Source: Calditrichales bacterium MX18-03
GTDB lineage: Bacteria > Bacillota > Clostridia > Lutisporales > Lutisporaceae
Direction of reading: 5' to 3'
Length of the DNA stretch: 64,000 nucleotides
Assembly (NCBI GenBank): GCA_021083345.1
Contig: JAJGRE010000003.1
Coordinates: forward strand, 62,001-126,000
In this document: positions 9,897-56,639 of the stretch, piece after piece
How positions within the stretch are numbered: position 1 is the stretch's first letter
How the letters are laid out: each line of letters opens with the position of its first letter
Position numbers and translations under genes: made by a program
Notes under the pieces: model-generated
What the model was told of the DNA's origin: nothing
Seen by the model: only the letters and a program-made list of their open reading frames with translations
The model's database searches: none

Positions 9897-9912
9897 GCAC
9901 CACGGATGGTGC
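9897..9912 (-). repeat. cassette-end stem-loop
   Basis: Minus strand GCACC-ATCCGT-GGTGC: perfect 5-bp stem with the conserved loop, between the hydrolase pseudogene and its attC. Confidence 0.7.
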
Positions 9913-9949
9913 GCCCCAACAACTTCATTATTTGATTAATATTAAATCA

Positions 9950-10741: not shown

Positions 10742-10838
10742 AACTTTTTTCCCCCAATTTTTTAAATCAACTTTTGCAAATAAATATGTTTCTTCATTTT
10801 TATAATAAATCTACAACGCACTGCCTTTAAAATCCGCC

Positions 10839-10856
10839 TATGTACGGGCGGTCTTA
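10839..10856 (-). repeat. cassette 5' stem-loop
   Basis: Minus strand CCGCCC-GTACAT-AGGCGG: a stem with a diverged loop, at the 5' boundary of cassette C11. Confidence 0.5.
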
Positions 10857-10866
10857 TGCGTGGTAT

Positions 10867-11043
10867 TTCTTAGAACGGCCCGCATCTGCGACGCCGATGA
10901 ACTGAACCATCAGAGCTCTTCTCCCTGGCGGTGCTTGCACCCAGTGAATCGGTGTGGTGCAGCCCTTCTTCATGCTCCAACTCCTTGAACCCGCTTCGTG
11001 ACTTTGCTATCTGCACCCTTGCGCTAGATGCATTGTTATACGC
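10867..11043 (-). other. attC-like recombination site
   Basis: A 177-bp site downstream of the GNAT gene at 11153: GTATAACAATGCATCTAGCG on the R''/L'' side and GTTCTAAG on the R' side; it has its own inner variant with GGGTGCAGATAGC. Confidence 0.8.
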
Positions 11044-11152
11044 CGTCGAAAGCCCCTTATCTCAGAGGGCGACATGTACGTCTCACCCTTAAAAATCCAC
11101 TTTATATTTACATAAAAAGTATTTGGTAGAAGTAAAATTTTTCACTTAATCT

Positions 11153-11596
11153 TCAGAAATCTTTCTTTAAATAAACCATATCAACCAATTGAACTCCATC
11201 CTCATAAATAGGGTGGTCATAGTTATTAGTAAAGAAATTTTCAACTTTATGTGATACTTCAAATCCACAATGTTCATAAAATGAAATTATCCACGGAATG
11301 TCTCCTGTACCAACTAAAAGTGTTTTACACTTATCCTTGTAGTACTCAAATATATAACTTATTAGGTATCTTCCATAACCTTTTCCACGATATTTTTCAT
11401 ATGTAGCTATGTTTTTCAGTTCACAGATATTTTCATCCTCCTGCGTTACTATACAAATGCTTTTTAAATCTCCATCATATAGGGCAAATACTTCTCCCCG
11501 TTCTAAATATTTATCAATCATATCTTCTTGTTCATCTGCTAGTAGTAATAAATCTAAGAAAGACTTTTTATTTCCTTTAATATGTTTGACTTCCAT
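11153..11596 (-). CDS. GNAT N-acetyltransferase
   Basis: About 147 residues. Starts [17 protein letters not shown] with AGGAGGT 6 bases before the ATG at 11596. GNAT landmarks are [26 protein letters not shown] (acetyl-CoA loop, residues about 63-88), [22 protein letters not shown] and the C-terminal MVYLKKDF strand. It resembles uncharacterised Firmicute GNATs. Cassette C10, whose two ends match at 18 of 19 positions (GTTATACGCCATCGAAAGC and GTTATACGCCGTCGAAAGC). Substrate unknown. Confidence 0.85.
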
Positions 11597-11671
11597 TCTT
11601 GACCTCCTATAAGACAAATATACTCTGTAGTACCTTGTAAATGTTCTTTCTTCAAAGCCTTACTTACATTA

Positions 11672-11689
11672 TCCGCGACACGATGTCGC
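11672..11689 (-). repeat. cassette 5' stem-loop
   Basis: Minus strand CCGCGAC-ATCGT-GTCGCGG: perfect 7-bp stem with the ATCGT loop. Identical to the copy at 22371, and close to those at 13186 and 19656. Confidence 0.7.
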
Positions 11690-11706
11690 GGTAAATGCTT
11701 TCGATG

Positions 11707-11897
11707 GCGTATAACGGTTTCGCACTCACGACACCACTGAACCGGACCACAGAGCCTGTCGTCCTGGCGGAACTTCGCTCCCGGTGAAGGGGTGTGGTTG
11801 CACTGCCCTTACTTCGAAGCAAATGCGTCCGGCAACCCAAGGCACGCATGCCCTCTAACCCTACCCGCCGTGCCGCAGCGTGAGCGCATTGTTTTGC
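11707..11897 (-). other. attC-like recombination site (long type)
   Basis: A 191-bp long-type site downstream of the HhH gene: AAAACAATGCGCTCACGC and GCGAAACCGTTATACG. The R'' box has one substitution (AAAAC), still paired in part with R'. Confidence 0.84.
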
Positions 11898-11908
11898 GGT
11901 GGATGGTG

Positions 11909-12049
11909 CCCTACAGAGCTCTGCCCTAATTTTTTCTATAACAGTTCCGGTACCCGGAACCTGACATGTGTCGATTATGCTTCTATTGCATCTCTTGGGT
12001 TTAAATCTCTCACAAACTCCGCATAGGCGTTTGCACATTATTAGAAGAA
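11909..12049 (-). repeat. conserved cassette 3' module, copy 3
   Basis: After the HhH gene: GCAAACGCC TATGC GGAGTTTGTG (one mismatch in the stem), GAGATTTAAACCCAAGAG, GTCAGGTTCCGGGTACCGG. Same order as the other copies. Confidence 0.8.
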
Positions 12050-12074
12050 TGCGAACTAATTTACAATTAATTCT

Positions 12075-12275
12075 TTATTTCTTTTGAGAAAATGATAATC
12101 CATTCTCGCTCATAGTTTGCTTAACAATATTCATTGCATTTTTTCCTATTCCATGTAGTTGAGAAAATTCTTTTTCACTATATTTTGATAACTGTTCCAT
12201 TGTTGTTATCCCTTCATTTTGGATAGCTCTTTGTGCTGGTTTAGCAAGTTTTTGAAGTAAAATATCAATGCCCAT
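12075..12275 (-). CDS. small helix-hairpin-helix DNA-binding protein
   Basis: 66 residues. LAKPAQRAIQNEGITTMEQLSKYSEKEFSQLHGIGKNAM is a helix-hairpin-helix of the type found in the RNA polymerase alpha C-terminal domain and in small Firmicute DNA-binding proteins; LHGIGKNA is the hairpin. It could bind DNA without sequence specificity (family inference). ATG with TAGGAGAG upstream. Cassette C9. Confidence 0.82.
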   Translation of the reverse strand: MGIDILLQKLAKPAQRAIQNEGITTMEQLSKYSEKEFSQLHGIGKNAMNIVKQTMSENGLSFSQKK

Positions 12276-12305
12276 ATATCCACTCTCCTAATCAAATTTA
12301 ATTCA

Positions 12306-12379
12306 TACTTTTCTACCAATACGCAACGTAGGAATCATACTTCTTAAATAAAACAATCTGCACCATCTGCCGTATAACG
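12306..12379 (-). repeat. conserved cassette 5' leader, copy 5
   Basis: GTTATACGGCAGATGGTGCA followed by TTTAAGAAGTATGATTCC and GCGTATTGGTAGAAAAG on the minus strand, in front of the HhH gene. Confidence 0.65.
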
Positions 12380-12532
12380 TTCCTTGTTTGCGACATCAGT
12401 GAATCGGACCCCAGAGCCCTACTCCCTGACGGTGCTTGCCACCCGGTGAACTGATGTGGTGCTAGTGCTGCACAATTAACATGGTCATGTAGCACGACTC
12501 GAGCTACCCGTAGCGCAAACATTTTGTTATCT
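12372..12532 (-). other. attC-like recombination site
   Basis: A 161-bp site downstream of the ICMT-like gene: GATAACAAAATGTTTGCGC and GGAACGTTATACGG. The L arms read TTTGCG/CGCAAA, differing from the usual ATTCACG yet still pairing, which is compensatory change. Confidence 0.84.
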
Positions 12533-12558
12533 GTCGGACCGAGTCTTCGAAGCTAAGA

Positions 12559-12574
12559 GCGGCAAGGATGCCGC
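12559..12574 (-). repeat. cassette-end stem-loop
   Basis: Minus strand GCGGC-ATCCTT-GCCGC: perfect stem, conserved loop, between the ICMT-like gene and its attC. Confidence 0.7.
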
Positions 12575-12578
12575 GGCC

Positions 12579-13097
12579 TTAAATATAACGTCTAACCTTA
12601 TTCATATATCTCATATATTCTTCTCCAAACTTCTTGATACACCATCTTTCTTCTGATAGGATAATCCAATGAGAAGATATTTGAAAAATTATCAGTAATG
12701 CAAATAACGTCCATGATTTTGATATAAGTACACATCCAAACAAACAAATGAAATATGCAATGTACATAGGGTTACGCGATATTCGATATAAGCCATTTAC
12801 ATTTATTCCACTTGTTTTAGGTCTCGCGTAATCCAACATCGATATAGCATATAAAATAAGCCCAAAACCGTATATTACTGCACCTATGTAAAACCAATCC
12901 GAATCAACTCTGATTTTTAGTAATATCAAATCCACGATAATGAACAGTGTTGTAACTTGATATACCCAATATGCTGTTCTTTCCCCCGCTACTAATGGTG
13001 CAAAGTATGCTGCACGTTTGAGAGCTTCTTTGTTGAGTATGTTTAAAAAAGCATATCTTATAATAATTATCGGTATAACAATTACGAACGCACTCAT
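12579..13097 (-). CDS. isoprenylcysteine carboxyl methyltransferase (ICMT)-family membrane protein
   Basis: About 172 residues with four to five hydrophobic segments. The C-terminal half holds the ICMT/PEMT signature: GLYRISRNPMYIAYFICLFG (NPMY region), then WIILSEERWCIKKFGEEYMRYMNKVRRYI, where the EE(R) and Y-x-x-Y end bind SAM in the family. ATG at 13097 has GGGGGA 6-7 bases upstream; an ATG at 13112 is possible. Bacterial members methylate varied small substrates; the target here is unknown. Cassette C8. Confidence 0.85.
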   Translation of the reverse strand: MSAFVIVIPIIIIRYAFLNILNKEALKRAAYFAPLVAGERTAYWVYQVTTLFIIVDLILLKIRVDSDWFYIGAVIYGFGLILYAISMLDYARPKTSGINVNGLYRISRNPMYIAYFICLFGCVLISKSWTLFALLIIFQISSHWIILSEERWCIKKFGEEYMRYMNKVRRYI

Positions 13098-13185
13098 TTG
13101 AATCCCCCACACATAGTTTCTAATTGTTTATTTTGACACCTAACCGTTCACAACAATATACTTACAAAGTCTTTCCTCAAAATAC

Positions 13186-13202
13186 ACGACACGATGTCGC
13201 GC
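13186..13202 (-). repeat. cassette 5' stem-loop
   Basis: Minus strand GCGCGAC-ATCGT-GTCGTGT: the ATCGT-loop hairpin at the 5' end of cassette C8. Confidence 0.6.
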
Positions 13203-13218
13203 CAATTGCTCGATCTGT

Positions 13219-13366
13219 CCGATAACGTCCCGCATCTACGACGCCCCAGAGCTTACAGCCTTTTGAGAATTCTTAGATAGCTCTCTTATCTCCAATTGTC
13301 AAAAGCGACTCGGTTAGCGAAGGGGATGTGCCCTGTCACGACAGTATAGATGCATTGTTAGCTGAA
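13219..13366 (-). other. attC-like recombination site (divergent interior)
   Basis: A 148-bp site that closes the ATC-hydrolase/IS cassette: GCTAACAATGCATCTATAC and GCGTCGTAGATGCGGGACG. Its interior (GAGCTATCTAAGAATTCTC) lacks the usual CCGGGTG block and resembles the interior of the site at 23219. Confidence 0.82.
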
Positions 13367-13389
13367 GTATACCGACCCCTTGTTCAGAG

Positions 13390-38069: not shown

Positions 38070-38122
38070 AATAGAATTGTCTTATGACAGGGCATGGCAG
38101 CTCTGCTGGGGGGAGAAAAAGA

Positions 38123-40102
38123 ATGCTAAAGGCTATAGAGATCATTTTCGGCATGATTTATGAGAAAAGTGCAAGCGCACTGGGTATCTTTTCAGATAAT
38201 TTCGATTGGTATGCCACCTTTGTCATGGTTGCATACCTATTTGCATTGTTCATGGTGCTGTATATTACTTTCAAAATGGAGAAAAACCAGCTCTATTACG
38301 GCTTCTTTTTTGCACTTGGCCTTCTGGCGCTGTGGCTTTATGCCGATCTGAAAAAGTACCTGTCCGTCAATCCGGAGGAAATTGTCTTCTGGATCCGTAT
38401 CGAATATTTTTCCAGGATCATGAGTGCACCCTCCTGGTATGCCATAGGCAATCTCTATACCAGGAGAAATGAGAAAATCAGGCTCAAGAAGTTCATGCTG
38501 ATCCTCATCCTTTACATTTCCATCTATTCGGCCTTCAACAGCACCTTAAGCTTTCACGGCATCCGGTCATCCCGTATGCTGCAGGTGCATGGCCCCATGT
38601 TCTCAATTTTTTATTTCGTCAACTATGCCACCATTCTGTTCAGCATTTATAAGCTGAACCGGTTTGCCGCCCGCCAGAAGGGAGTTTTTATCAAGCAGGT
38701 GAACCTGATCTCCTGCGGCATTTGCCTTGTTTTTATTTCGGACATGCTCTGCCTTTTCAACATCATCCGTCCGGATTTTGATATTCTTCCCTTCTCCTTG
38801 TTCCTTTGCCTCCTTTTCATATGGAGGGGCATTACCAAGTACCGGCTGCTGGAGGTAATCCCCATAGCACTCCGGGAAGTCTTCAACAATATGGATGACG
38901 GTGTGGTGGTGCTGAATGAAGACGGCAGCATCATTGATATGAATCATGCAGCAAAGTGCTATCTGGGAGATCATTATCATCCCAACAGGGATGTCTCCAT
39001 TCTGGATATTGTCAAAAACCTTTCCGATAAGATCGATAATGCTGCCCCATTGGCGGAATCCTTCCGAAGCCTGATCCGGCATCCCGACTCCAATTTCCAT
39101 ACCGAGATCTGTATCAGGACAGAGCCGCCAAGATATTTCAACATCAAAATGGGACCCATCTTCGACAGCCGGAGGCGCATCATCGGTCATATTGCCGGAA
39201 TCGATGATATCACAGACTATAAGACCCTGCTTATACGGAACGAGGAGCAGAATTTCCTGCTGCACGAGCAGAATGATGAATTGGAAGCTCAAAAGGAAGA
39301 GTTGGAAGCTCAACGGGACGACCTGGAAAACGCATACAGGCAGCTGCAGGAAGCGCAGTCGCAGCTGGTCCAGTCCGAGAAAATGGCTGCACTGGGCAAC
39401 CTGGTAGCCGGCGTTGCCCATGAAATCAATACCCCGCTTGGCTCCATCAACAGCAATCTGGATACCGGCCGCCTCATTATGGACAAGCTTTCAAAGATAG
39501 CCGAAGCCGATGGCAATGAAGACATCCGCAAGCTGGTAGAAAAGTACAACAAGCTGAACGAGATCAACAACATTGCTTGCCGGCGCATTCTGGAGATTGT
39601 TCAAAGCCTGAAAAATTTCTCCCGGCTGGATGAAGCAGCGTTCCAGAAAGCAAATATACATGACGGCATCGACAGCACCTTGATCCTCATCAACAATCAG
39701 ATAAAGAACCGGATAACTGTCCATAAGAATTATGGCAGCATTCCGGAAATCCAATGTTATCCCAACCAGCTGAACCAGGTTTTCATGAATATCCTGGTCA
39801 ATGCGGCCCAGGCCATTGAAGGCACAGGTGAAATCCATATCCGGACAGTTCTTCAGGATCAGCATGTCCGTATCGAGATCACCGATTCGGGAAAAGGTAT
39901 TAAACCTGAAAATTTGCGAAAGGTTTTTGATCCCGGCTTTACCACCAAGGGTGTTGGTGTGGGAACCGGATTGGGCCTCTCCATTTGCTATAAAATCATC
40001 GAAAAGCATAACGGCAGAATATACGCTGAAAACGTACCAGGCATGGGTGCCAGGTTTGTCATCCAACTACCCATTGCGAATGCAACACAAGATAAAGTAT
40101 AG
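38123..40102 (+). CDS. sensor histidine kinase with N-terminal 7TM-type region and PAS domain
   Basis: About 659 residues. Seven hydrophobic segments (residues about 25-235, like the 7TM histidine-kinase module), a PAS domain (LREVFNNMDDGVVVLNEDGS..., about 255-370), a Glu/Gln-rich coiled coil, the DHp domain with phospho-His H433 (GVAHEINTPLG), and the ATPase domain with VNAAQAIEGTG, ITDSGKGIKPEN and GTGLGLSICYKIIEKHNG. ATG at 38123 has GGGGGGAG upstream. Cotranscribed with the response regulator 17 bases later. Confidence 0.93.
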   Translation: MLKAIEIIFGMIYEKSASALGIFSDNFDWYATFVMVAYLFALFMVLYITFKMEKNQLYYGFFFALGLLALWLYADLKKYLSVNPEEIVFWIRIEYFSRIMSAPSWYAIGNLYTRRNEKIRLKKFMLILILYISIYSAFNSTLSFHGIRSSRMLQVHGPMFSIFYFVNYATILFSIYKLNRFAARQKGVFIKQVNLISCGICLVFISDMLCLFNIIRPDFDILPFSLFLCLLFIWRGITKYRLLEVIPIALREVFNNMDDGVVVLNEDGSIIDMNHAAKCYLGDHYHPNRDVSILDIVKNLSDKIDNAAPLAESFRSLIRHPDSNFHTEICIRTEPPRYFNIKMGPIFDSRRRIIGHIAGIDDITDYKTLLIRNEEQNFLLHEQNDELEAQKEELEAQRDDLENAYRQLQEAQSQLVQSEKMAALGNLVAGVAHEINTPLGSINSNLDTGRLIMDKLSKIAEADGNEDIRKLVEKYNKLNEINNIACRRILEIVQSLKNFSRLDEAAFQKANIHDGIDSTLILINNQIKNRITVHKNYGSIPEIQCYPNQLNQVFMNILVNAAQAIEGTGEIHIRTVLQDQHVRIEITDSGKGIKPENLRKVFDPGFTTKGVGVGTGLGLSICYKIIEKHNGRIYAENVPGMGARFVIQLPIANATQDKV

Positions 40103-40119
40103 AAAGCGGGGCGGAAAAG

Positions 40120-41199
40120 TTGAACAAAGAGAATCCGTTTATTGTCATCGTAGATGATGACGATATCATTACCGACAGTATCTCCACCTACCTTGAACTA
40201 ACCACCGATTACAGGATCGCTTCTTTCAACCATCCTGTTGAAGCCCTTGACGCGCTGAAGGATCAAAGCATCGACGTGATTATTTCCGATTTCATGATGC
40301 CGGATATGAACGGCCTGGACTTCCTGTCTAAAATCAAAAGGCTTTCACCCAGTACCGTCATGATCCTCCTGACGGGCTATGCCGATAAAGAGAATGCCAT
40401 TCGTGCCATCAATGAACTGGAGCTTTTTCAATATGTGGAAAAGCCCTGGGACAATGAAGAATTGAGCTTGATCATCAAGAATGGTCTGGATAAGAAAAAC
40501 CTGGTGCTGGAACTGACCAGCAAGATTGAAGAGCTTCAGGAAACCCACAAACAGATTGCAGATCAAAAGGATGAGATCACACATCTATATGAGCTGCTGC
40601 AAAAGGAATATGAAGCCGAAAAGGAAAATGTGGAAAATGTTATCGTGGCTTTGGCAAAAGCCATTGAAGCCAAGGATAAGTATACCGAAGGGCATACCGA
40701 CCGGGTAAGCCATATAGCCGTCAAGATTGGTGAGCGCTTGAAACTGTCCAAGGAGCAGCTGAAGGTTCTCAAAATTGGCGGGATCGTTCATGATATCGGA
40801 AAAATAGGCGTACCGGAGCACATTCTGAATAAACCGGACAAGTTGGACCTGCTGGAGTTCGAGATCATCAAAACCCATCCCATCATCGGGGAAAATATCT
40901 GCAAGCCTTTGAAATCCTTGAGCTTTGTCCTGACTACTGTTCGGCAGCACCACGAGAAGCTCAACGGAAGCGGTTATCCGGATGCTTTGACCAGCGATGC
41001 CATCAATATCGAGTCCCGCATCATTGCAGTAGCGGATATTTTCGACGCGGTTTCCAGCGAAAGACCATACCGTGGAAAAATGACTCCCAAGCAGGTACGG
41101 GAAGTGCTTTACCGCGAAAAAGAAGCGGGCAGCCTGGACCCGCTTGTTATAGATACCCTGTTCAGTTTGATTGACGAAGGTGAGATCAATCTTTTATAA
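40120..41199 (+). CDS. response regulator with HD-GYP domain
   Basis: 359 residues. Receiver domain (IVDDDDIITDS, phospho-Asp D57 in ISDFMMPDMNG, TGYADK, EKPWD), a coiled coil (about 130-185), and HD-GYP: GHTDRVSHIAV, VHDIGKIG (H224/D225), RQHHEKLNGSGYPDAL, VADIFDAVSSERPYRGKM. HD-GYP proteins hydrolyse cyclic di-GMP. The signature GYP is intact. Overlaps the convergent RluA gene by 14 bases. Confidence 0.95.
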   Translation: MNKENPFIVIVDDDDIITDSISTYLELTTDYRIASFNHPVEALDALKDQSIDVIISDFMMPDMNGLDFLSKIKRLSPSTVMILLTGYADKENAIRAINELELFQYVEKPWDNEELSLIIKNGLDKKNLVLELTSKIEELQETHKQIADQKDEITHLYELLQKEYEAEKENVENVIVALAKAIEAKDKYTEGHTDRVSHIAVKIGERLKLSKEQLKVLKIGGIVHDIGKIGVPEHILNKPDKLDLLEFEIIKTHPIIGENICKPLKSLSFVLTTVRQHHEKLNGSGYPDALTSDAINIESRIIAVADIFDAVSSERPYRGKMTPKQVREVLYREKEAGSLDPLVIDTLFSLIDEGEINLL

Positions 41200-42073
41200 A
41201 TCCCTTTATATCCTCGGGTATGGGTGCCATAAGGCTTATGTGCGCCCCGGTAAAAGGATGGATAAAGGACAAGCGATAGGCATGCAGCGCATGCCTATTT
41301 ATTTTTTCCGACTCCTGTCCGTATAAGAAGTCTCCCATCAGCGGATGTCCGATATGTGCCAAATGGACGCGTATCTGATGGGTCCTTCCTGTTTCAATCA
41401 GAATTTCCAGAACCGTATATGCTGCACTGCGTTCGAGTACGTGGTAATGGGTAACAGCCCTGTCGCCGCCATCTCTGACGACCCGTTTCATGCGCTGAGG
41501 CTGCTCCCTGGCAATAGGCGCGTCAATGGTCCCCTGCATTTTTTCAACCTGACCCTCCACCACTGCCAGATACACCTTTTCCATGTGCACCCTTGCTTCC
41601 TCCAGTGACATCAGGTGCTGCACATGGGCGCTTTTCGCAAAGATGACAAGTCCGGAGGTATCTTTATCCAGTCTGTTCACAGGTCTGATCCTGGCACTTT
41701 TGCCTCTGTCCATCAGATAATACATCAGACCGTTGGCCAGGGTTCCCATAAAATGCTTCCGGGTAGGGTGGACGGGAACACCCGGCCTTTTGTTGATGAC
41801 GATCAGATGGCTGTCCTCAAAAACAATGTCCAGCGGCATTTCTTCCGGCAGGATGCCTTCGGAGTCCTCCTCCAGTTCCCGCAGCCGTACGACATCCCCT
41901 TCCCTCAGCGTCATATCCACAAAAGCCTTCTCTCCGTTTACCGTGATGCTTTCCGCCTTTTTATAGGCCACCAGGTTCCTGTGAGACAGCCTCAGGTTGT
42001 CCCTGAGAAAATCCCGCAGCTTCTTTCCGGCCATTTCCTTATCGATCAGATAGCTTCCATTATCCTGCATCAT
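41186..42073 (-). CDS. RluA-family pseudouridine synthase
   Basis: 295 residues. N-terminal S4-like domain (GKKLRDFLRDNLRLSHRNLVAYKK), catalytic PVNRLDKDTSGLVIFAKS with the active-site Asp, and GRTHQIRVHLAHIGHPLMGDFLYG. The protein modifies RNA uridine; which site is unknown. Immediately downstream of a second paralogue. Confidence 0.93.
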   Translation of the reverse strand: MMQDNGSYLIDKEMAGKKLRDFLRDNLRLSHRNLVAYKKAESITVNGEKAFVDMTLREGDVVRLRELEEDSEGILPEEMPLDIVFEDSHLIVINKRPGVPVHPTRKHFMGTLANGLMYYLMDRGKSARIRPVNRLDKDTSGLVIFAKSAHVQHLMSLEEARVHMEKVYLAVVEGQVEKMQGTIDAPIAREQPQRMKRVVRDGGDRAVTHYHVLERSAAYTVLEILIETGRTHQIRVHLAHIGHPLMGDFLYGQESEKINRHALHAYRLSFIHPFTGAHISLMAPIPEDIKGFIKD

Positions 42074-42074
42074 A

Positions 42075-42980
42075 TCAAGCCTCGAACTTTCCGCCGTTTT
42101 CCAATAAGTCGATCATCTTCTCCATGTCCTCCGGCATTTTTGCTTTCAGCACCAGCAGTGCCTCTGTTACCGGATGGTTCAATGTCATTTCACAGGCATG
42201 CAGCGCCTGCCTGCCGATCTGGGTGCTGGCCGAACCATAAAGCGTATCGCCGACAATTGGGTGTCCGATATGGCTCAAATGTACGCGTATTTGATGGGTT
42301 CTCCCCGTCAGCAGCTTTAAACGAAGTAGCGATACGCTGCCAAAGCACTTTATGGTCTTATATTCAGTCAGTGCCGCTTGACCGTCTTTTATGACAGCCC
42401 GCTTGAATGGTTCTTGAGGGTCTGCGCCTAAGGGAAGCTCTATACGTCCTTGGTCCGGTTCCACGCAGCCCACAACCAACGATAAGTATTCCTTGGTGAT
42501 GAGGTCCTCCGTCATCCTTTTTCCCAGGGAGCTGTGTATCTCCCCGGATTTGGGAACCAGAACGATGCCTGAGGTATTCATATCCAGCCGGTTCAACAGG
42601 CGAACCTGGGTCCTGACCCCCGCCAGCCGGAAATGATGTGCAATACCGTTTGCCAGCGTACCATCTGGATGATTCTTTGTCGGATGTACCAGCATGAAAG
42701 CAGGCTTATTCACAGCTAGCAGGCAGTCATCCTCATAAATGACCTCCAATGGCATCTCCTGCGGTACTATCATATCCTCTTCGTCTTCAGAAAAATCAAT
42801 GACCAGACGGTCACCATTTTTCAGCCGGCTGTCCCTATAGCCCGTCTTCCCGTTAACGGCCACCTTCCGCTCTTTTATCAAGGCCTTGCTTTTTCTTGTA
42901 CTCAAGCCAAGCTGACCTGTCAGATAGTCCACTATATTCATTTTCTCTTCAATATTCGCAAGCTCAATTTCTTTTATCAT
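42075..42980 (-). CDS. RluA-family pseudouridine synthase
   Basis: 301 residues. S4 part (LGLSTRKSKALIKERKVAVNG), catalytic RLLNRLDMNTSGIVLVPKS (DMNTSG in place of DKDTSG), GRTHQIRVHLSHIGHPIVGDTLYG. One base after it the next RluA gene starts, a tandem pair of paralogues. Confidence 0.92.
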   Translation of the reverse strand: MIKEIELANIEEKMNIVDYLTGQLGLSTRKSKALIKERKVAVNGKTGYRDSRLKNGDRLVIDFSEDEEDMIVPQEMPLEVIYEDDCLLAVNKPAFMLVHPTKNHPDGTLANGIAHHFRLAGVRTQVRLLNRLDMNTSGIVLVPKSGEIHSSLGKRMTEDLITKEYLSLVVGCVEPDQGRIELPLGADPQEPFKRAVIKDGQAALTEYKTIKCFGSVSLLRLKLLTGRTHQIRVHLSHIGHPIVGDTLYGSASTQIGRQALHACEMTLNHPVTEALLVLKAKMPEDMEKMIDLLENGGKFEA

Positions 42981-44825: not shown

Positions 44826-45749
44826 CTAATCTCCATGCATGGATATAATGTGTTTTTTATCTATCGCAATGCTTTGACCCATTGCAGCCATACTGTACAT
44901 TTCTTCTGCCTGTGCCAGCGGAATGCCTTTGAGGAGCACCTTTTTCAAATCTGCTTGACCGATTCCCCGTCTATGCAATTCAAAAAGGTATTGCACGGCC
45001 TGCGGCAGAAAACCCATCAGCCTGCAGGCAACGGTATCGGCTGCAACCGGATCGGTCCCAGCCACGATCAGCTTTGAATCCACCGGCTTGCCGTCACTGG
45101 GTCCTGTTCCTGTCATGCCCATCATCCCGGTCAATATTGTGATATCAATGGGCACCGCTTCTCCCATTGCAGTAATGAATGAATGCAGCGCTTCGTGTAT
45201 CCCCAGCTTTTTTTTGGGGATACCGTGGATTTCTCCCGGCGGCCAGGACAAAGCTACATTTTTTATTCCCAGGGATACTGTTGCTTCTTTATGCATTTTC
45301 ATCGGGGTAAAGGAAAGGTGTATATCCATGTCTTCCAACAGCTTGTTGATTTTGGTCGTAGTAACGATATCGTGATTCAACCGGATTTCGGTATATGGAC
45401 CGAAATTCAGGTCCACAAAACGAACCTGTTCTTCGGTGATAATCCTGCTGAAGCCGATTTCTTCGAAAACCTGTGCTGTGGTCACGCCGCCGGAGCCTGC
45501 AGCCACTGTGATGCTGCCGGGATTGAACTGCTTCAGGTAACGGATGATTTTCCGGAGCAGTTCCGGATGGACCACCGTCCCTGTGCTGGGGGGCTTTTTG
45601 TCTACCATATTGGCTGTAATGACGACCCTGTCACCGCTTTTTATCATTTTATCGGCATCAATGAGCCTCAATGCATCCTCAATGCAGTTTCCGCTTTGCT
45701 GTGCATCGACAATGCCTACGACAGCTGCTTCATTTCTTCTTTTACGCAT
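44826..45749 (-). CDS. DUF362 protein
   Basis: 307 residues. VVITANMVDKKPPSTGTVVHPELLRKIIRYLKQ, the ITVAAGSGG and TTKINKLLEDMDIHLSFTPMKMHKEATVSLGIKN blocks fit DUF362 (a domain sometimes with iron-sulfur clusters, absent here). KPVDSKLIVAGTDPVAADTVACRLMGF is also typical. ATG at 45749; its ribosome site GGAGG lies inside the terminator hairpin at 45750-45801. Confidence 0.88.
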   Translation of the reverse strand: MRKRRNEAAVVGIVDAQQSGNCIEDALRLIDADKMIKSGDRVVITANMVDKKPPSTGTVVHPELLRKIIRYLKQFNPGSITVAAGSGGVTTAQVFEEIGFSRIITEEQVRFVDLNFGPYTEIRLNHDIVTTTKINKLLEDMDIHLSFTPMKMHKEATVSLGIKNVALSWPPGEIHGIPKKKLGIHEALHSFITAMGEAVPIDITILTGMMGMTGTGPSDGKPVDSKLIVAGTDPVAADTVACRLMGFLPQAVQYLFELHRRGIGQADLKKVLLKGIPLAQAEEMYSMAAMGQSIAIDKKHIISMHGD

Positions 45750-45825: not shown

Positions 45826-48800
45826 TCATGGCGTTTCGTAGTACCGGATGCGCTTCAAAAGCTCCAAATCGTTTTCAAGGTAGTGGGACGGGGTCAGATT
45901 CAGGTTGTACTCCATATCCTTTCCTTGATCGGGACAGCGCGGCGTGGCAAAGACATTTCCCAGGGATGCTAGCGTCAAGCTCCTTTGGCTGACCTCCTGG
46001 TATTCTTCTTCCAGGATTTTCAGTAAATCCATGGCGTTTTGCAGGCACACCTCCGAAAGCCGGTATACGGCATCCTTCGAAGTCCCTTTCAGGAAGTTGG
46101 GCGATGTATACGGCAATATCAGATTCACAGAGGGCAGCAGATTGCGCTGCGGATAACTGCCCCTCCACAAAGCGTCTCCCCCGATGAAAGGATACTGCAG
46201 ACTTTCATTGAACCACGCTCTGAGCCTCGGTATGAAATAGGCACAGTCCACTTCCCGGTTCTGGATGTCCATCAGCTCTTTTCCCCGGTTGGAGAGGATG
46301 CCGACGATGATCTTCTTGACTTCCATTGGCTCCTGCTTGAGAAGCGGGTCCAGCGCCTTCATGCGGTAGCCTTTGCTCAGCAGGTCGTCCACAAGGATGA
46401 TGGGCCTGTCAAATGAGCGGATCAGCTTTAGCTGGGTTTCCATATCCAGATAGTGCGGGAAGGCGCCTATGTGGTAGCCCTTCATGTCCGGCCTGAAATA
46501 TTTCTCCGTATGTAGGGATTTTGTAACCGTGTTGGGCACAATGGATTTATGCAGAATGTTGCCGAAGGGGACACAGATATAAGGTCCCAATCCGGCATCG
46601 CTCAGCTGCTGTGTAGGAACACCGTTCTCCCTGCAAATCTTCTTGATAAGAGATTCATGCAGCATGCGCCTGTCAAAGGGCAGAACCAGATGCCCCGGAT
46701 ACAGGTCCACCAGCGCTTTCATCAGAAGCTTCCGTGTCTGTGAGATGACCTGCCTGACATTGGCATTGCTCCGGTACGGCTCCTTGATGACCGAGCGGAT
46801 ATCCAGGTACAGCGTGCAGGGATTGCCTGCATATACGGTGTAAACAGGTGCATGGGCAGGACCGCCGCTGATTTTCTTAAAACCGCAGAGTTCAAGGAGT
46901 TCCTGCAGTGAATCCTCTATTTGCCCTTCGATGCCATTCCTGCAGATGATATAGTCATAATCATGGGCCAGACAATAAGCCAGGGTCTCGGCCAGGAGGA
47001 CCTGCTCCAGGTTGTCAAAGGCTGGGGAAGGCTTGCAATATATTCCGTCAATGAGTACCATGCTGCCTACGGCATTGTCGTAAATATACTTGGAAAGCGT
47101 GCTGCTTTTCAGTTCATCATAAACACTGCTGGTCTTTAACCAGTGGAAAACCGAAAAACCGATGATGCGTCCGTCTCCCTTGGCATCCCTGAGCAGGATG
47201 ATCCGCCCGAACTGGCGTTGTGAGACCTCCTGCATATGCCTTAATGCAGCAGCCGGGTTTTTGCAGAAGGCGGCCGCCAGCTCCTCCAAAAGCGCCTGGT
47301 CAAAATCCCTTATCACTTCCACATCAATGGAAACACCGCCGCCCAGGGCTTTGTACTGAGGTTCCCGCTGATACAGTCCGTTTTCATAGATGTATTTCTG
47401 TGCCAAAGGATCGATATAGCTTGAAATCTCCCGATTCTCATCGATATAACTCCGGATCTGCGCCGGGCTGGCATCCTCGTAATGATGCGGCAGATCCAGC
47501 CGGATCACCTTTCCTTCTATCCGCTTCAACGCCTTCTCAAAGGCATTTTGGTCCTGCTTTTCCCCTTCTTTCCGAAAATCGAACACAACATGGTTGGCGC
47601 GCTGCAGTGCATTTTTGGTCTTACTGCGTCGGTACGGCTCCTCATTCAATATGACATCACTGCCGGCTACAAGGTACAGCTCCGAGTTGGGGAAGTTCCC
47701 CTTCACAGCCGATAGGTCCGCCGTGTTGGCAATGTTGACTGAAAAATCCTCGGGATACGCATAGATGCCCAGTTCATCCGCAATCGTCATATTGATGATG
47801 TTGCGCCTGATGAGATTGGGAAGCGCCTGCCGCTGCCAGGAGAATTCATCAACTGCCAGATAGACCTCAAAGCCTTTATCCCGGATAGCCACGGCGATTT
47901 GTTTGTGGCTCAGGGAGAAGGGGTCGAAGGTCCCCGGAAAAAAGGCTACTTTCTCCGGAATGGCGATGTCCAGAGCGCCATAAGTAAAGACATACTCCGA
48001 GATGAACCGGTATATATGGTTGAAGGCAGCCGAATTGCTCAGAAACTGCAGCTCCCTCTCCTTGTTGTCTGAAATCAGGTAAAGCACTTTTTTGGCAATC
48101 AGCCTGAAGGCATCCGCCTTCTGCTCAAGGGTCAACCGCTTGGAACCGAAAATCTCCTTGCCGATGACCGAAAAAGCAAATTGCTTTATTTGGAGGTTAT
48201 AATCCGCCAGGGCGTTGATGATGACCTGCAGCAGCCTGACCGCCGTCTTCTCGATGGCAAGCCCGCCCTGTTCCTTCTCATAAGCCTCCTGGATCCTGGT
48301 CACCACAAAGATCCCAATGGTCTTCAGCACCAGCATGTTAAGCTGTGGGTTGGAGTGCTTGACCTTCTCCACCAGGTCCTTCACCATCTCCTCCAATTCC
48401 ACGGGTGGCAGGTATACCAAGATCTGCCCCAGATAATACGGGATATAGCTGGAAAACTGATAGCCGTCCAATTCAAGCGCCCTCAGCAACTCGACAGACA
48501 CATCATTGCGCTGTTCTACAGTCAGATGCGGTATGATGGTGACCAATGCTGCGCCTGCACTGTTTCTGACACCTTCCACAGCGCTGACCTTCAGCAGGTT
48601 GCAAAAATGCAGTGCTGTATAGAACCCGTTTGACTCAGGATTAGAAAGGGCGTTCATGGTCAGCATGTCGATCTGTGCTTTTTTGATCACCCAATGGGTC
48701 TCTGCCTTCAGGTTTTTAAGAAACACATTCGACAGCTCTTTATTTGATACCTTGTATAGCTGCTCCAGCTCCATGACACTGCCTGCATCGACCCCCATCC

Positions 48801-50721
48801 CCCGAAGTATCTTTTTTACAAGGTATTCCTCCACCGGTGCTGCCGCCTTTCCCTGGCTTTCCTTCAGATATATCCCTAATTCACCGGTAATGCCAATGCC
48901 GCCTTTCAGCTTGGGCAACAAAGTATCTATCATTTCCAGGGCTGAGATCCTGGCTATGTCATTTCTGCTTTTCAGTAAGTGCATCAGATAATCATACAAT
49001 ACCTGCAGCCCGGAATCCCCATCGGAAAGCGGTATATGCTTGGCTGTCTGCAGGAGATAAGTATCGATTTCATCCGTATGATGTTCCGAGAGTTCCAGAT
49101 ATGACAGCACAATCCGCCTAAACTCATTGACCTGGCTTGCCCTGCACCTTGAGAACAAGCCTGAGATCATGATGCCGGTGCTGTATCCGATCCACTGCTT
49201 ATGGGAGGGAATAACCTTGTGATCCGGGTACAGAAAGCTTTTCATGTACTGGTCAAGCAGTTCACAGCCGGTGACTTCCGGCTTCTGGATCACCTCGTCC
49301 TTGGGTACCTCCTTGCGGTAGTCTTCATCAAATATGGCTATGAGGCTGCCGATCATCTCGGCGCAGTGTCTTCTGATATCTTCTTCAGGATGAATCAGCT
49401 GATCAAAGAGGAATTTCAATACGATCAGCTTCTGCCTTTGGGTCAGGTAAGTGGAATATTCTTCAAAAATGCGGATGTATTCCCGCAGGTTCTTCCAATC
49501 CTTTTCATTCCGGGCTTCTTCCAGGATCTCATTCATGGCATGCTCATTCCTCAGCCGGTACATGAGCCTTATGTTGTGATCAATGGATGAAAACTTCATC
49601 TGCTCGATGATGGCATCACCCTGCAGCATCGCATAATAACATTTGGTAGCCGTCAGCCGCAGCTTCTTCTTTTTTTCGGTATTCAGGTCGGTCTCTATTC
49701 CAAGATAAGCCATATAGGCTTCAAAATCCGCCAGCTTCATATAGACGCGCCGGTACCGCCTGTTCTTTTTCTCATCCACATTGTCCAGCTTGCCCAGAAT
49801 AATATCAAAAGCTTCAGCCAGCGTATAGATATGCATGACCTTCCTGCCATCCGTTCCCTTGATGCTCTTTACCCTGAAATCAGCATAGATCAGGATCAGG
49901 GATTCCAGCGGCAGGTTTTCCAGCTCCAAGTCCCAGGTGGAGTGGTTGACGGCAATATGGCCGATATAGGGGATATCGTGGCGCTTGAACCAATAATCGG
50001 TATAATAATAATGCAGGTATGGGACCCTGTTGTACTCCGACTCCTTGCAGCCATATTTTCCTATATCATGACCGGCTGCCCCACCTGATACCCGCCCCAG
50101 GTCGATGGGAATTCCCGCATTTTTCAGTTGACGGCCGATATGCAGCGCAACATAGTGCACCCCTGTAATATGGTCAAGGGTCTTATGCCCGGTCACTTCC
50201 TCCGACAACTTCATCATCTCGTATATATATTCCTTCTCGAAGGCTTTGACGAATTTTCTGTATTCTGTAGGGTTTTCCAGCTGCGCCTCTTCGTTTTGAT
50301 TCAGAAATGCAAAGGTATTCCGGTTCTGCCAGTCAGCATCGTGCTTTTTTTTCTGCTGGTTCAGAACCTCTCTGAGTATATCCATGAAGAAAAGGCAGAC
50401 ACACTCATATTCAGGGTTCAGCTCAACAGGCACTGCGTCCGGAAATGACTTATCCAGTGCATAATAATAAAAATAGGAAAGCCATCCTGCTTCGGGCGCA
50501 TCCCATTGCATGCTTTCAAGCATAGGCCTGAAAAGCTCATAGGTGCGGCTGCAAATCGACTCTTCCTCCTCCCATAGGTCCCTCATGATGAGAAGAAATG
50601 TCTCTGACTGGATATAATCCACCGCAAAGCCCTTCTCCAGACCGCATGCTGCCAGATGTCCCGGCTCAAGAAAAGCTTCCCGCAATACCTTATGAAGCTT
50701 CATTGTGTCAGCTGTTTTCAT
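45826..50721 (-). CDS. giant multidomain protein: HD + helical repeats + NadD-like + GNAT-like + phosphoribosyltransferase
   Basis: 1631 residues, one open frame. Residues about 165-330: HD-type domain (VTGHKTLDHITGVHYV, GGAAGHDIGKYG with H218/D219, AVNHSTWDLELENLPLESL). About 380-910: helical HEAT-like repeats. About 925-1115: nicotinate-nucleotide adenylyltransferase-like (AFFPGTFDPFSLSHKQIA, YLVAGSDVI, ASPAQIRSYIDENREISSYI). About 1130-1300: GNAT-like region. About 1300-1500: phosphoribosyltransferase with the PRPP loop IILVDDLLSKGYRM. No membrane segment. Start ATG at 50721 or MKLH at residue 7. NAD-related or nucleotide signalling is an inference. Confidence 0.85.
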   Translation of the reverse strand: MKTADTMKLHKVLREAFLEPGHLAACGLEKGFAVDYIQSETFLLIMRDLWEEEESICSRTYELFRPMLESMQWDAPEAGWLSYFYYYALDKSFPDAVPVELNPEYECVCLFFMDILREVLNQQKKKHDADWQNRNTFAFLNQNEEAQLENPTEYRKFVKAFEKEYIYEMMKLSEEVTGHKTLDHITGVHYVALHIGRQLKNAGIPIDLGRVSGGAAGHDIGKYGCKESEYNRVPYLHYYYTDYWFKRHDIPYIGHIAVNHSTWDLELENLPLESLILIYADFRVKSIKGTDGRKVMHIYTLAEAFDIILGKLDNVDEKKNRRYRRVYMKLADFEAYMAYLGIETDLNTEKKKKLRLTATKCYYAMLQGDAIIEQMKFSSIDHNIRLMYRLRNEHAMNEILEEARNEKDWKNLREYIRIFEEYSTYLTQRQKLIVLKFLFDQLIHPEEDIRRHCAEMIGSLIAIFDEDYRKEVPKDEVIQKPEVTGCELLDQYMKSFLYPDHKVIPSHKQWIGYSTGIMISGLFSRCRASQVNEFRRIVLSYLELSEHHTDEIDTYLLQTAKHIPLSDGDSGLQVLYDYLMHLLKSRNDIARISALEMIDTLLPKLKGGIGITGELGIYLKESQGKAAAPVEEYLVKKILRGMGVDAGSVMELEQLYKVSNKELSNVFLKNLKAETHWVIKKAQIDMLTMNALSNPESNGFYTALHFCNLLKVSAVEGVRNSAGAALVTIIPHLTVEQRNDVSVELLRALELDGYQFSSYIPYYLGQILVYLPPVELEEMVKDLVEKVKHSNPQLNMLVLKTIGIFVVTRIQEAYEKEQGGLAIEKTAVRLLQVIINALADYNLQIKQFAFSVIGKEIFGSKRLTLEQKADAFRLIAKKVLYLISDNKERELQFLSNSAAFNHIYRFISEYVFTYGALDIAIPEKVAFFPGTFDPFSLSHKQIAVAIRDKGFEVYLAVDEFSWQRQALPNLIRRNIINMTIADELGIYAYPEDFSVNIANTADLSAVKGNFPNSELYLVAGSDVILNEEPYRRSKTKNALQRANHVVFDFRKEGEKQDQNAFEKALKRIEGKVIRLDLPHHYEDASPAQIRSYIDENREISSYIDPLAQKYIYENGLYQREPQYKALGGGVSIDVEVIRDFDQALLEELAAAFCKNPAAALRHMQEVSQRQFGRIILLRDAKGDGRIIGFSVFHWLKTSSVYDELKSSTLSKYIYDNAVGSMVLIDGIYCKPSPAFDNLEQVLLAETLAYCLAHDYDYIICRNGIEGQIEDSLQELLELCGFKKISGGPAHAPVYTVYAGNPCTLYLDIRSVIKEPYRSNANVRQVISQTRKLLMKALVDLYPGHLVLPFDRRMLHESLIKKICRENGVPTQQLSDAGLGPYICVPFGNILHKSIVPNTVTKSLHTEKYFRPDMKGYHIGAFPHYLDMETQLKLIRSFDRPIILVDDLLSKGYRMKALDPLLKQEPMEVKKIIVGILSNRGKELMDIQNREVDCAYFIPRLRAWFNESLQYPFIGGDALWRGSYPQRNLLPSVNLILPYTSPNFLKGTSKDAVYRLSEVCLQNAMDLLKILEEEYQEVSQRSLTLASLGNVFATPRCPDQGKDMEYNLNLTPSHYLENDLELLKRIRYYETP

Positions 50722-50862
50722 CCTTTATCCTCCTTAGCCCCTTCACTGCCGTTATACCTGAAAAAACTGTAAATCATCAACGATTTTAACTTTACTTTCA
50801 TATGGAAACGTACTATAATCTATTAATTATAGCATGAATTCAGATAATTTTGAATTCATTTG

Positions 50863-50903: not shown

Positions 50904-51842
50904 GTGATTTCTATGATCTGCTATCAGGAAGAAAAAGTGAAGGAAGTCGTGCAGCAGCTGACCAGTAAAAGGGTATCGCTGCAGCCCGTAGGCAATCACG
51001 AGCTCGACAGGCATCTGGTCTATCACATCAGCTGCGAGAACGGCACCTCGGCAATATTCAAGCTGTATTTCAAAAAGAACCGCTGGAACCGGGAGGTGGC
51101 ATCATTGAAGCTGCTTTCGGAAAGTGGGGTGCTCTGTCCCAAACTACTGGGCTTCGGCATTCTGGATGATGAGACGGAGTGGATCCTGATGGATTATTTC
51201 AAGGGCAAGCCCTATCAACAGGTCTACCATCTGATCGATGAAGAGAACAAGTCTGCTGTCTACAGTCAGCTGGGCAGGGAACTTGGCAGAATCCATGCCT
51301 ACAAGACCTTTGATTTTTTCGGCAACTGGGACGCTCAGGGAAAGAGCCTAACACACATAAAACAATTCTGTGACTTTTTCATCCCCCATGTCAATACTGT
51401 ATACGCGGAAATATACAAGCAGTCGCTGCCTGACTTTGATTTGCTGCAGCGCGGCATCGATTTCCTGACAGGCAGCTATCACCTGCTGGATGCTGTGGAG
51501 ACATCTGTTCTCTGCCACAACGATTATGGCGAAAGAAATGCGCTGGTCTGCTGGGAACGCGGCAAATGGCGGCTTTCAGCCGTTATCGATTTTGAGCAGA
51601 GCCTGCCGGCCGACCGGGACAAGGATTTGACCTACTTCCTGGATATCCTGGAAAATAAAAGCATTGCCTACGCGGATGCCTTCAAGGAGGGATACCAGTC
51701 TATCCTGCCCATTCAAGACTCTTACTATCAGAAAAGGGAGTTTTATCTCATCTATACGGGATTGTATATCTGCAGTTGGGCTTACAAACAGGCTCCCGAG
51801 CACTATGCCGAAGGGATTTCGCTCTTGAAGCGCTTTCTATAG
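50904..51842 (+). CDS. aminoglycoside phosphotransferase (APH)-fold kinase
   Basis: 312 residues. ATP Lys in GTSAIFKLYFKK, LMDYFKGKPY hinge, catalytic VLCHNDYGERNALV (HND in place of HGD), AVIDFEQSLPADRDKDL metal site, C-terminal helices. An ATG with GGGTGAG upstream. Chromosomal kinase of unknown substrate; divergent from the giant gene. Confidence 0.85.
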   Translation: MISMICYQEEKVKEVVQQLTSKRVSLQPVGNHELDRHLVYHISCENGTSAIFKLYFKKNRWNREVASLKLLSESGVLCPKLLGFGILDDETEWILMDYFKGKPYQQVYHLIDEENKSAVYSQLGRELGRIHAYKTFDFFGNWDAQGKSLTHIKQFCDFFIPHVNTVYAEIYKQSLPDFDLLQRGIDFLTGSYHLLDAVETSVLCHNDYGERNALVCWERGKWRLSAVIDFEQSLPADRDKDLTYFLDILENKSIAYADAFKEGYQSILPIQDSYYQKREFYLIYTGLYICSWAYKQAPEHYAEGISLLKRFL

Positions 51843-53058: not shown

Positions 53059-54048
53059 CTACACTCCTTCGTAAAAAAGATCTCTCATCATCCGGTCCGG
53101 CTTCTGTGGCAGCGGACACTCAAAGCGCAGCCCGGTAAGGTATTCCAATGCCTCTTCCATCTTCTGAAATTCCAGTTTGTATGCAAAAAGGAACTGGCTT
53201 CCCAGGCCGTATCGCTGCCTGCAATAGTCATTCAGCCTTTTTTCACCGTACTTAACGTCTCCGGCTATAGGATGCCCCAGACCGGCGAAATGCACCCGGA
53301 TCTGGTGGGATCTGCCTGTGATCAGGTCCACCTGCAGCAGGGAAAACACATCTTTCAGTTCTTCCAGCTGCCTTGATACGCCAAGTGTCTCATATTTTGT
53401 ACGGACAGGCTTGCTTTCTGCTTCCGCTCTATCGGATATGGCTGCTTTGTTTGCCGCTCTATCCTTTACAAGATAGCCGTCCAGCTCACCCCTCCGGTCC
53501 AGCTTTCCTTTGACAATGCAAAGATACAGCTTTTTTATCTTGCGCTCCCGTATGGCTTCATTGATCAGCTTTAGGCTTGTGTAATTCTTTGCAATGATAA
53601 CCAGTCCTCCGGTGTTGCGATCTAAGCGGTTGCAGGGCGCCGGGGAAAAGGTCCTGGAATGCGCATAGCCGCCTTGCTGCTCCAGATACGCCAATGCACG
53701 ATCAATCATCGTATCGGTGTCGTCCGGCTTATCTGGGTGCGTCAAAACACCTGCCGGCTTGTTGACAATCATGAGGTTGTCGTCCTCATAGATAAGCTCC
53801 AGTTCTACCTGTTTTTTCGGTTTCACAACCACCTTTTCAGCTGGCCGGTCGATTTCTCCGATATAAAGCTGAACGGCATCTCCCAATGCAAGCATTTGGC
53901 TTTCCTTCACCTTGCCACCGTTGAGCTTCACTTTGTTCTTTCTGAAAAGCTTGTATATATCTCCAAGGGAATATTCCTTCAGATACTTTCTTAAAAAACG
54001 GTCCAGCCTTTGTCCGGCCTCATTTTCGGTAATTCTTATTTCAATCAC
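53059..54048 (-). CDS. RluA-family pseudouridine synthase
   Basis: About 329 residues. N-terminal S4 (GQRLDRFLRKYLKEYSLGDI), catalytic PCNRLDRNTGGLVIIAKNY (DRNTGG), GRSHQIRVHFAGLGHPIAGDVKYG. A GTG at 54048 has GGGAGGG upstream. The third RluA-type gene in the window. Confidence 0.92.
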   Translation of the reverse strand: MIEIRITENEAGQRLDRFLRKYLKEYSLGDIYKLFRKNKVKLNGGKVKESQMLALGDAVQLYIGEIDRPAEKVVVKPKKQVELELIYEDDNLMIVNKPAGVLTHPDKPDDTDTMIDRALAYLEQQGGYAHSRTFSPAPCNRLDRNTGGLVIIAKNYTSLKLINEAIRERKIKKLYLCIVKGKLDRRGELDGYLVKDRAANKAAISDRAEAESKPVRTKYETLGVSRQLEELKDVFSLLQVDLITGRSHQIRVHFAGLGHPIAGDVKYGEKRLNDYCRQRYGLGSQFLFAYKLEFQKMEEALEYLTGLRFECPLPQKPDRMMRDLFYEGV

Positions 54049-54085
54049 GGTGTTCCCTCCCGCCTTGCCGTACGCTGCAAAAGGC

Positions 54086-54107
54086 ACAAAAATGGGCCGC
54101 AGGCCCG
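54086..54107 (-). terminator. terminator of the MaoC gene
   Basis: GGGCC-TGC-GGCCC hairpin followed by ATTTTTG on the minus strand. Confidence 0.75.
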
Positions 54108-54758: not shown

Positions 54759-56639
54759 CTACAGCTTTATTGGGATATGCTCCAGGTAATCCTGCAGCTT
54801 GCCGTCGTTGATGCAGCATTCGATAATCTTCTTGCCCAGCGGGTTCAGACGCCTTGACAGGTACTGATCCAACTCCCGCTTGAAGAACTCTGTCAGGATC
54901 CTGGCCCCTGCATCATAGCCCTCATTGCCTATTTCCGACTGGAAATTGGGCTGCAGGAAGCCTTTACGCAGGTACTTACCATCGATCTTCAGCGTCTCCA
55001 GGGAGTATCCCAGAAGCGGCGTTCTGGATTCCACCAGATGCTCCGGCCTGAAGCTGGCACTGCCTCTTCTGGCCAGGTACTCTCTGGCGATCCATTGGGG
55101 CATGAAGCCCACCTTGTATGCGCCTATATGCTGGTTGGGTATCAGGATATACCTCGTATTTGATGTCTTCATGATCTGCTCAAGCAGCAGGTTTGCCTGG
55201 TCAACCCTTTTGCCGGTAGCAAAAGGCCAATAGGAGCCGACCCCCTCACTGCTCATTCCGCCGCTGTCTGTGATGCTGGGGTTGTCATGGCCTCTGGGCG
55301 CTACCAGCCTCCAGAGCCAAGCCAAAGCCGGCGGCAATATGTGCAGCAGCCCGATGATGCCATATGTCGGACTCTCCTTGGTACAGGGCGGTGTTCTGAC
55401 CCCAAAACTTCTTACGTCGATTTCCACAGAGTCATTGACAACGTCCGGGACAAAACGCCTGGGCATTATGACTCTGGGATTGGGACAAGGCTTTCCTGGT
55501 TCATCCATGGTATGCTCCCATATCAGACAGGTTGAACCGGGCATTGCCTGCAAATTCAAAAATATCAGCGGCTCCTGCGGATGGATGCAGAGTCTTTCAT
55601 AATGCGGATCGATACCGTACTGGTTGATGTGGTTGATCCTCAAGAACCAGCCCTGCTCCGCATCCTTGACGCCCAGCTTCTTGCTGCCGTTCTGAAGGGT
55701 AGGATGGCAAAGTGCCATGTCATCGGTTACCGGCTGCAGATCGCAGGTTTCGTTCAATTCCAGCAGATATCTTTCACCGGTGACGGTATTCCTGGCCAAC
55801 TGGATCCGACCGTCCGGCTCTCTGTGTATCTGCTCCAGCATTTCACTCTTTCCGCCGCCGCTGGCGCCTTCATGCATGATGGTCAGGACATTGTCGTACG
55901 GTGTTATGACCTTGACGGTTGACGCATGGGCAGTAAGCCAGCCTTCGAACTCGCCGATGTTCAGCAAAACGCTGTATATCCCCTTCTTGGCACTGGGTCC
56001 GGGATACAGGTTGTATGAAAATAACTCATGCATGTCCCTCAATCGGTTGTGAACCACAACCTGCTTGGAATTGAAATGTGTATGCCTAAAAGGCGGTGCC
56101 AGGTAAATAACGGCATTGGGCTTAAAATGATTGGGCAGCTTGTCTTTGGGAATAAACCCCTGTATGTCTGCAAGTGCAGCTGCAAAGAAACCTGAATTCA
56201 TGGGTGCAACCAGCAAAGCCGGATAGCCCAGTTCAAAGCCCCCTGCCATAAAAGGCATGACGATCAGCTCCTGCTCCTTCAACCAGTCAAATGTGGTTTT
56301 GCGCAGCGGTTCAAAATCCGCACCGTAAACATCATTGTACCGCGGCTTGTCTGTTTCCTCATCGTCTGCAATCACCATGCACTCAGGATCCCTTCTTCGC
56401 ATATAGACATCCGTGTAATTGATTGCAACACCGTTTTTGCACTTTGCTACAGTGGCTTCCAGTATCCTGCCGTTTCCCGGAATATCATAGGATACTTCAT
56501 AAACCATATTGTCATCATTGCCCATAGCAAGTGTGAGGAGGTGGTTCCTGCTCTCCGGCACGACACATTTGATATCGCCAGAAAGGATATCGGCCAGCTC
56601 AGGCGGCAGGATCATTTTCTGCAAAACCTTCTTATCCAT
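54759..56639 (-). CDS. DUF4914 protein with a PEPCK-like P-loop
   Basis: 626 residues. No characterised function. A nucleotide-loop candidate EGASGGGKSEM (residues 257-267) resembles the P-loop of phosphoenolpyruvate carboxykinase/HprK-type kinases. Other blocks: VVHNRLRDMHELFSYNLYPG, RFVPDVVNDSVEIDVRSFGVR, GGMSSEGVGSYWPFATG, LIPNQHIGAYKVGFMPQWIAREYLARRG. Soluble. ATG at 56639 with GGGGTC upstream. Monocistronic, with its own terminator. Confidence 0.8.
   Translation of the reverse strand: MDKKVLQKMILPPELADILSGDIKCVVPESRNHLLTLAMGNDDNMVYEVSYDIPGNGRILEATVAKCKNGVAINYTDVYMRRRDPECMVIADDEETDKPRYNDVYGADFEPLRKTTFDWLKEQELIVMPFMAGGFELGYPALLVAPMNSGFFAAALADIQGFIPKDKLPNHFKPNAVIYLAPPFRHTHFNSKQVVVHNRLRDMHELFSYNLYPGPSAKKGIYSVLLNIGEFEGWLTAHASTVKVITPYDNVLTIMHEGASGGGKSEMLEQIHREPDGRIQLARNTVTGERYLLELNETCDLQPVTDDMALCHPTLQNGSKKLGVKDAEQGWFLRINHINQYGIDPHYERLCIHPQEPLIFLNLQAMPGSTCLIWEHTMDEPGKPCPNPRVIMPRRFVPDVVNDSVEIDVRSFGVRTPPCTKESPTYGIIGLLHILPPALAWLWRLVAPRGHDNPSITDSGGMSSEGVGSYWPFATGKRVDQANLLLEQIMKTSNTRYILIPNQHIGAYKVGFMPQWIAREYLARRGSASFRPEHLVESRTPLLGYSLETLKIDGKYLRKGFLQPNFQSEIGNEGYDAGARILTEFFKRELDQYLSRRLNPLGKKIIECCINDGKLQDYLEHIPIKL

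Follow-up and report, generated by a model that had tools for sequence, protein, structure and literature searches.

A five-domain protein of Clostridia co-inherited with two redox-type partners, and a partnerless paralog in a Lutisporaceae genome

Introduction

A single minus-strand reading frame in a 64,000-nucleotide stretch of a Lutisporaceae genome (the whole stretch is called the window here) raises two questions: whether parts that resemble five different protein types really belong to one protein, and what such a protein would do. The preliminary description of the locus had read the frame as an HD domain, helical repeats, a NadD-like nucleotidyltransferase, a GNAT-like segment and a phosphoribosyltransferase (PRTase) part. 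It had pointed to the known fusion of NadD with YqeK, and had suggested a link between NAD or dinucleotide metabolism and nucleotide salvage or protein modification. The answers given below differ in strength from domain to domain.

Results

The gene at 45826-50721 (minus strand) is a single intact frame of 1631 codons that starts with ATG, preceded by the Shine-Dalgarno sequence AGGAGG at a spacing of 7 nt (50722..50735, minus strand). Fifteen homologs align with its translation across the entire length, at 35-52% identity, and the frame is therefore neither a chance ORF nor an assembly chimera; full-length homologs in many genera rule out both. Searched alone, the window sequence gave 0 matches above the Pfam cut-offs, and a PDB sequence search with it found no chain that matches the whole protein. 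The domains were found by sequence, profile and structure comparison, bearing out the claim of five parts in one frame. Two of the motifs originally quoted, GTFDPF and H218-D219, stand as described, while SPAQIR, the PRPP loop and the motif content of the GNAT-like segment needed correction.

The HD domain (residues 140-345; 49687..50304, minus strand) is the most conserved part of the giant, as we call this protein and its full-length relatives. All 37 sequences have H184, H218, D219, K222, H237, H260 and D281, and Pfam HD matches 11 of 16 family members (best E 5e-5). The ligand order H...HD...H...H...D is that of dinuclear YqeK, and H...HD...H...HH...D that of HD-GYP enzymes (PMC8177086). 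All 37 giants carry the dinuclear set, metal binding itself being a prediction. In HHalign comparisons of the HD part, a profile built from 20 clostridial YqeK sequences gave a probability of 6.6%, compared with 63% for dGTPase and 49% for HD-GYP, which served as controls. A scan of the giant's own genome with TIGR00488 (YqeK) gave no match at either giant locus. Like the YqeK (COG1713) Ap4A hydrolase, the giant has the H...HD...H...H...D order and a Lys four residues past the HD His; unlike it, the giant is much larger, lacks a TIGR00488 match and shows a profile similarity that is not specific. The motif order makes a YqeK-like mechanism plausible, but the low profile probability leaves membership in YqeK unsupported. 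Assignment of the domain as a true YqeK (TIGR00488, COG1713) was rejected, as its support lies at the level of the motif and HHalign does not favour it.

Residues 360-915 (47977..49644, minus strand) form the helical repeats, put at about 500 residues in the preliminary description and confirmed here. An AF2 model from seven sequences is all helical (pLDDT 80, pTM 0.76), and its best structural matches are HEAT/ARM proteins. HEAT proteins also filled the list when the N-terminal half was compared by structure; the HD fold is assigned from sequence.

The NadD-type nucleotidylyltransferase fold spans residues 924-1120 (47362..47952, minus strand), as judged by profile and structure comparison. 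The single window sequence matches NCBIfam NadD over 924-1119 (E 5e-7), with a score of 26-29 bits (TIGR00482 / NF000840) that lies below the curated cut-offs of 112-150. Alignment to canonical NadD with hhalign gave E 1e-22 over 187 columns, and structure comparison gave Z of about 14 at 3.0-3.4 Å over 171-188 aligned residues. The FDPF...H motif and R972 occur in 37/37 giants, and an ISSTxIR-type motif in nearly all, solo copies excepted. The giants thus share with NadD/NMNAT (TIGR00482) the fold, GTFDPx...H, ISSTxIR in most members and the 187 homologous columns. They differ in the HxGH site, which reads S/T-x-[SG]-H (the second His is kept in 37/37, the first is S or T), and in the substrate pocket, where PED.PxNIAN.xD and Y1030, both conserved, take the place of the NaMN-binding SYTvDTL loop and the NadD Trp. 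This replacement by other conserved residues suggests that the acceptor nucleotide is probably not NaMN. The window copy departs further from NadD: GTFDPFSLSH is intact, but ISSTxIR has been damaged to ASPAQIR, and among the 37 sequences P stands at this site in the window copy alone.

Canonical nadD and yqeK are encoded side by side on contig C7 of the genome, and this rules out the giant as the housekeeping NadD or YqeK. The proposed link to NAD metabolism is weaker than the preliminary description had it: the replaced NaMN loop and Trp, the separate nadD and yqeK genes and the HHalign result for YqeK count against it.

The segment at residues 1130-1300 (46822..47334, minus strand) has the classical strand/helix order of a GNAT fold in structure comparison (Z 14.3, 2.8 Å, 148 aligned residues). 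No sequence search recovers this fold, and PDB sequence searches with the GNAT and PRTase profiles gave nothing usable. The CoA-binding motif Q/RxxGxG/A is absent, with no conserved Gly in the strand 4-to-helix loop (1230-1237), and of all the parts of the giant with an enzyme fold this one is conserved least. Lack of the CoA motif makes acetylation by this domain unlikely, and the suggestion of protein modification finds no support here.

In the type I PRTase-like domain (residues 1330-1560; 46042..46734, minus strand; loop ILVDDLLSKGYRM), PF00156 gave matches for 12 of the 16 giants searched, the best with E 7e-5; the window copy matched at 0.003, below the curated cut-off. The PRPP loop of the giants reads DD-x-x-[HN]-[KR]-G-[YHF]-R, versus the usual DDxxxTGxT: DD and G are retained, with mostly K/R and R in place of T. 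The stretch PNTVTKSLHTEK is strongly conserved. PRTase activity is uncertain, and the altered loop suggests that transferase activity may have been lost. The C-terminal AF2 model is weak (pLDDT 63, the PRTase part often below 50), and PRTase_2 gave one weak match.

Two genome sets were searched, a sample of 393 well-assembled clostridial genomes and a phylum sample of 398. The giant occurs in 25 of the 393 (about 6%), across 10 families, and in 8 of the 398. The remaining matches of the 393-genome search cover the NadD part only and are weak, as ordinary nadD genes would give. Full-length relatives (33-54% identity) have a domain order that is constant in every one. They come from Alkaliphilus, Lutispora, [Clostridium] symbiosum, C. 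transplantifaecale and Acetoanaerobium, from uncultured Lachnospiraceae and Oscillospiraceae, and from many further genomes. A search of the open-access literature found no description of the architecture or of the three-gene unit described below. The view that the full set had not been characterised holds for that literature, with a taxonomic spread over many clostridial genera. The parts are known; their combination and the co-inherited partners appear to be undescribed.

The giant normally heads a unit of three genes. Directly downstream of most giants lies a gene for a protein of about 416 aa with an LDH/MDH-type NAD-binding Rossmann domain, in which, by our reading of the alignment, Met stands where LDH would have the catalytic Asp. 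The second partner, encoded there as well, is an iron-sulfur-type flavoprotein of about 350 aa whose FMN_red domain is accompanied by four Cys that never vary (C-x2-C-x4-C-x8-C); a PDB search with its profile gave nothing usable. Across the 393 genomes, the 25 with the LDH-like protein are precisely the 25 with the giant. Such an overlap would have a chance of about 1e-39 if genomes were independent, an assumption that does not hold for related genomes. Of the genomes tested for the flavoprotein, 11 of 11 with a giant had it and 0 of 6 controls did. At 34 of 36 distinct external loci the LDH-like gene shares the locus with the giant, the exceptions being L085 and L092. Two loci (L006, L091) are cut by contig ends, two (L067, L068) have a few genes between giant and partner, and partners at the GC-rich loci L007 and L088 and at the genome's own operonic copy (L093) were located with tblastn. 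From the identical set of 25 genomes, the shared loci and the distribution of the flavoprotein, we infer a common pathway for the three proteins. The co-inherited trio would mark such a pathway in many Clostridia, including the gut species [Clostridium] symbiosum. The genes separating giant and LDH-like gene at L067 and L068 are, by eye, ammonium-transporter-like and glutamate-synthase-like. A role in defence was rejected, as PADLOC gave no match for the giant or its partners.

The genome encodes a second full-length giant about 33 kb away, outside the window, with 53% identity and in an intact unit. In a tree of 37 giants the window copy groups with one copy of a second genome (G007) with support of 100, apart from the giants that stand in operons in these two genomes. 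The window copy, the G007 copy and a counterpart in a further related genome (G008) have no redox partners beside them, and each is placed head-to-head with an APH-like kinase gene; in the window this divergent neighbour lies at 50904..51842 (plus strand, GTG start). Among 22 giant-family genomes the kinase gene is confined to G000, G007 and G008, and in every case a solo giant adjoins it. A DUF362 protein gene lies 76 nt downstream of the giant in the window (44826..45749, minus strand), an adjacency without a counterpart at the G007 solo locus.

In the solo copies the NadD site decays by stages. In the G007 copy PGTFDPF has become TDIFDPF and ISSTxIR has become ILSCETK; in the G008 copy the second half of the site is gone. 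HD and PRTase motifs are intact in these copies and in the window copy. Compared with the operonic paralog in its own genome, the window copy has an identity of 71% in the HD part, 63% in the PRTase part, 57% in the NadD part and 37% in the GNAT part. The best reading of this retention of HD and PRTase sequence alongside NadD decay is a paralog selected for what its HD and PRTase parts do, under relaxed constraint on adenylyl transfer. The probable role of the window copy is that of a hydrolase/PRTase, possibly in concert with the APH-like kinase encoded head-to-head. Solo paralogs of this kind reveal the domains that can do their work when the adenylyltransferase site has decayed.

Discussion

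The reading that we favour, while giving it somewhat less than an even chance, is that the giant and its redox partners form a pathway in which a multi-active-site enzyme makes or remodels an NAD-like dinucleotide, the window copy being a paralog outside the unit. The PRTase-like domain would make, bind or remodel a mononucleotide, which the NadD-type domain would join to AMP from ATP, giving an NAD-like dinucleotide whose base is not nicotinate. YqeK hydrolyses Ap4A and mis-made NadD products (PMC9426524); a YqeK-type dinuclear diphosphatase in the HD domain would cleave the wrong or surplus product at a pyrophosphate-type bond. The HEAT superhelix would hold the sites together, and the GNAT-fold segment would be structural or ligand-binding. 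The presence of the LDH-like protein and the FMN/4-Cys flavoprotein suggests a product that these partners would use or reduce in a redox step. The substrates and reactions are inferred, and the domains, motif conservation, co-occurrence, paralogy and neighbours observed. A more specific version is speculative: the trio would make and use a cofactor or signal, an NAD-like dinucleotide with a non-nicotinate base, with a single polypeptide both assembling and proofreading it, and the solo paralogs, as a natural separation of functions, would only degrade or sense it. If true, this would add a new cofactor or signal in anaerobic Firmicutes.

The closest precedent is the mycoplasma NadD-YqeK fusion JCVISYN3A_0380, in which the YqeK part hydrolyses mis-made NadD products (PMC9426524). 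The NadD-type part and dinuclear-type HD of the giant do recall that fusion, as the preliminary description noted, and the union of an adenylyltransferase with an HD hydrolase in the same chain suggests product proofreading. However, in the giant the HD domain is N-terminal with about 550 residues of repeats between the two, GNAT and PRTase-like parts are added, the nicotinate pocket is not conserved, and the genome keeps separate nadD and yqeK genes.

Alternatively, the giant could be a sensor scaffold with HD as the sole catalytic site; its NadD, GNAT and PRTase parts would serve mainly to bind nucleotides and so to regulate either the HD hydrolase or the redox partners. We hold this to be possible but distinctly less likely than a dinucleotide-making or -remodelling pathway. 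It would fit the strong conservation of HD, the solo copies that lose NadD motifs and retain HD, the GNAT fold without a CoA motif, the altered PRPP loop and the LDH-like partner without the expected catalytic Asp. Pure sensing would not need the NadD catalytic motifs, though, and these are kept by operonic giants in nearly all of 37 diverse sequences; the strong conservation of the PNTVTKSLHTEK loop of the PRTase part also argues against it.

A variant of NadD-YqeK NAD synthesis or quality control, in which the substrate would be NaMN/NaAD or damaged NAD(H), the PRTase would serve salvage and the redox partners would repair or use NAD, is less likely again. NadD and HD do stand together in one protein, as in Mycoplasma, and the LDH-like partner is of the NAD-binding type. 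Against this, the NaMN loop and Trp are replaced, the score is far below the NadD cut-off, canonical nadD and yqeK are present, and only about 6% of genomes have a giant.

We give little credence to the idea that the giant is part or relative of a Ter-linked nucleoside-metabolite pathway (C-C lyase, PRTase_2, TerD, TelA, YceG). One giant without redox neighbours, in G692, adjoins genes for C-C_Bond_Lyase, YceG and TelA and three TerD genes, and the weak PRTase_2 match points the same way. The Ter-linked PRTase_2 (PF15609) biosynthetic module likewise has a PRTase in a presumed nucleoside pathway. But the PRTase is a different one and the association is a single case among 36 loci; G194, G302 and G331 carry close C-C lyase/PRTase_2 homologs elsewhere, and most giant genomes have none. 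At the G692 locus (L085) the Ter-type cluster spans 1-8298, next to the giant at 8504-13372, and includes a P-type ATPase.

That the window copy is a pseudogene in the course of loss, as absent partners and a damaged NadD motif might suggest, is very improbable given its intact frame with a ribosome site, HD and PRTase identities to its own paralog above the protein average, and a solo clade that two genera, with three genomes between them, have kept together with the neighbouring kinase gene.

Some other genes in the window were assigned by eye. Three RluD-like pseudouridine synthase-type genes lie within 13 kb on the minus strand (41186-42073, 42075-42980 and 53059-54087), two of them in tandem. 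The region 38084-41199 (plus strand) encodes a histidine kinase and, after it, a response regulator whose C-terminal domain is of the HD-GYP type. A 626-aa protein is encoded at 54759-56639 (minus strand).
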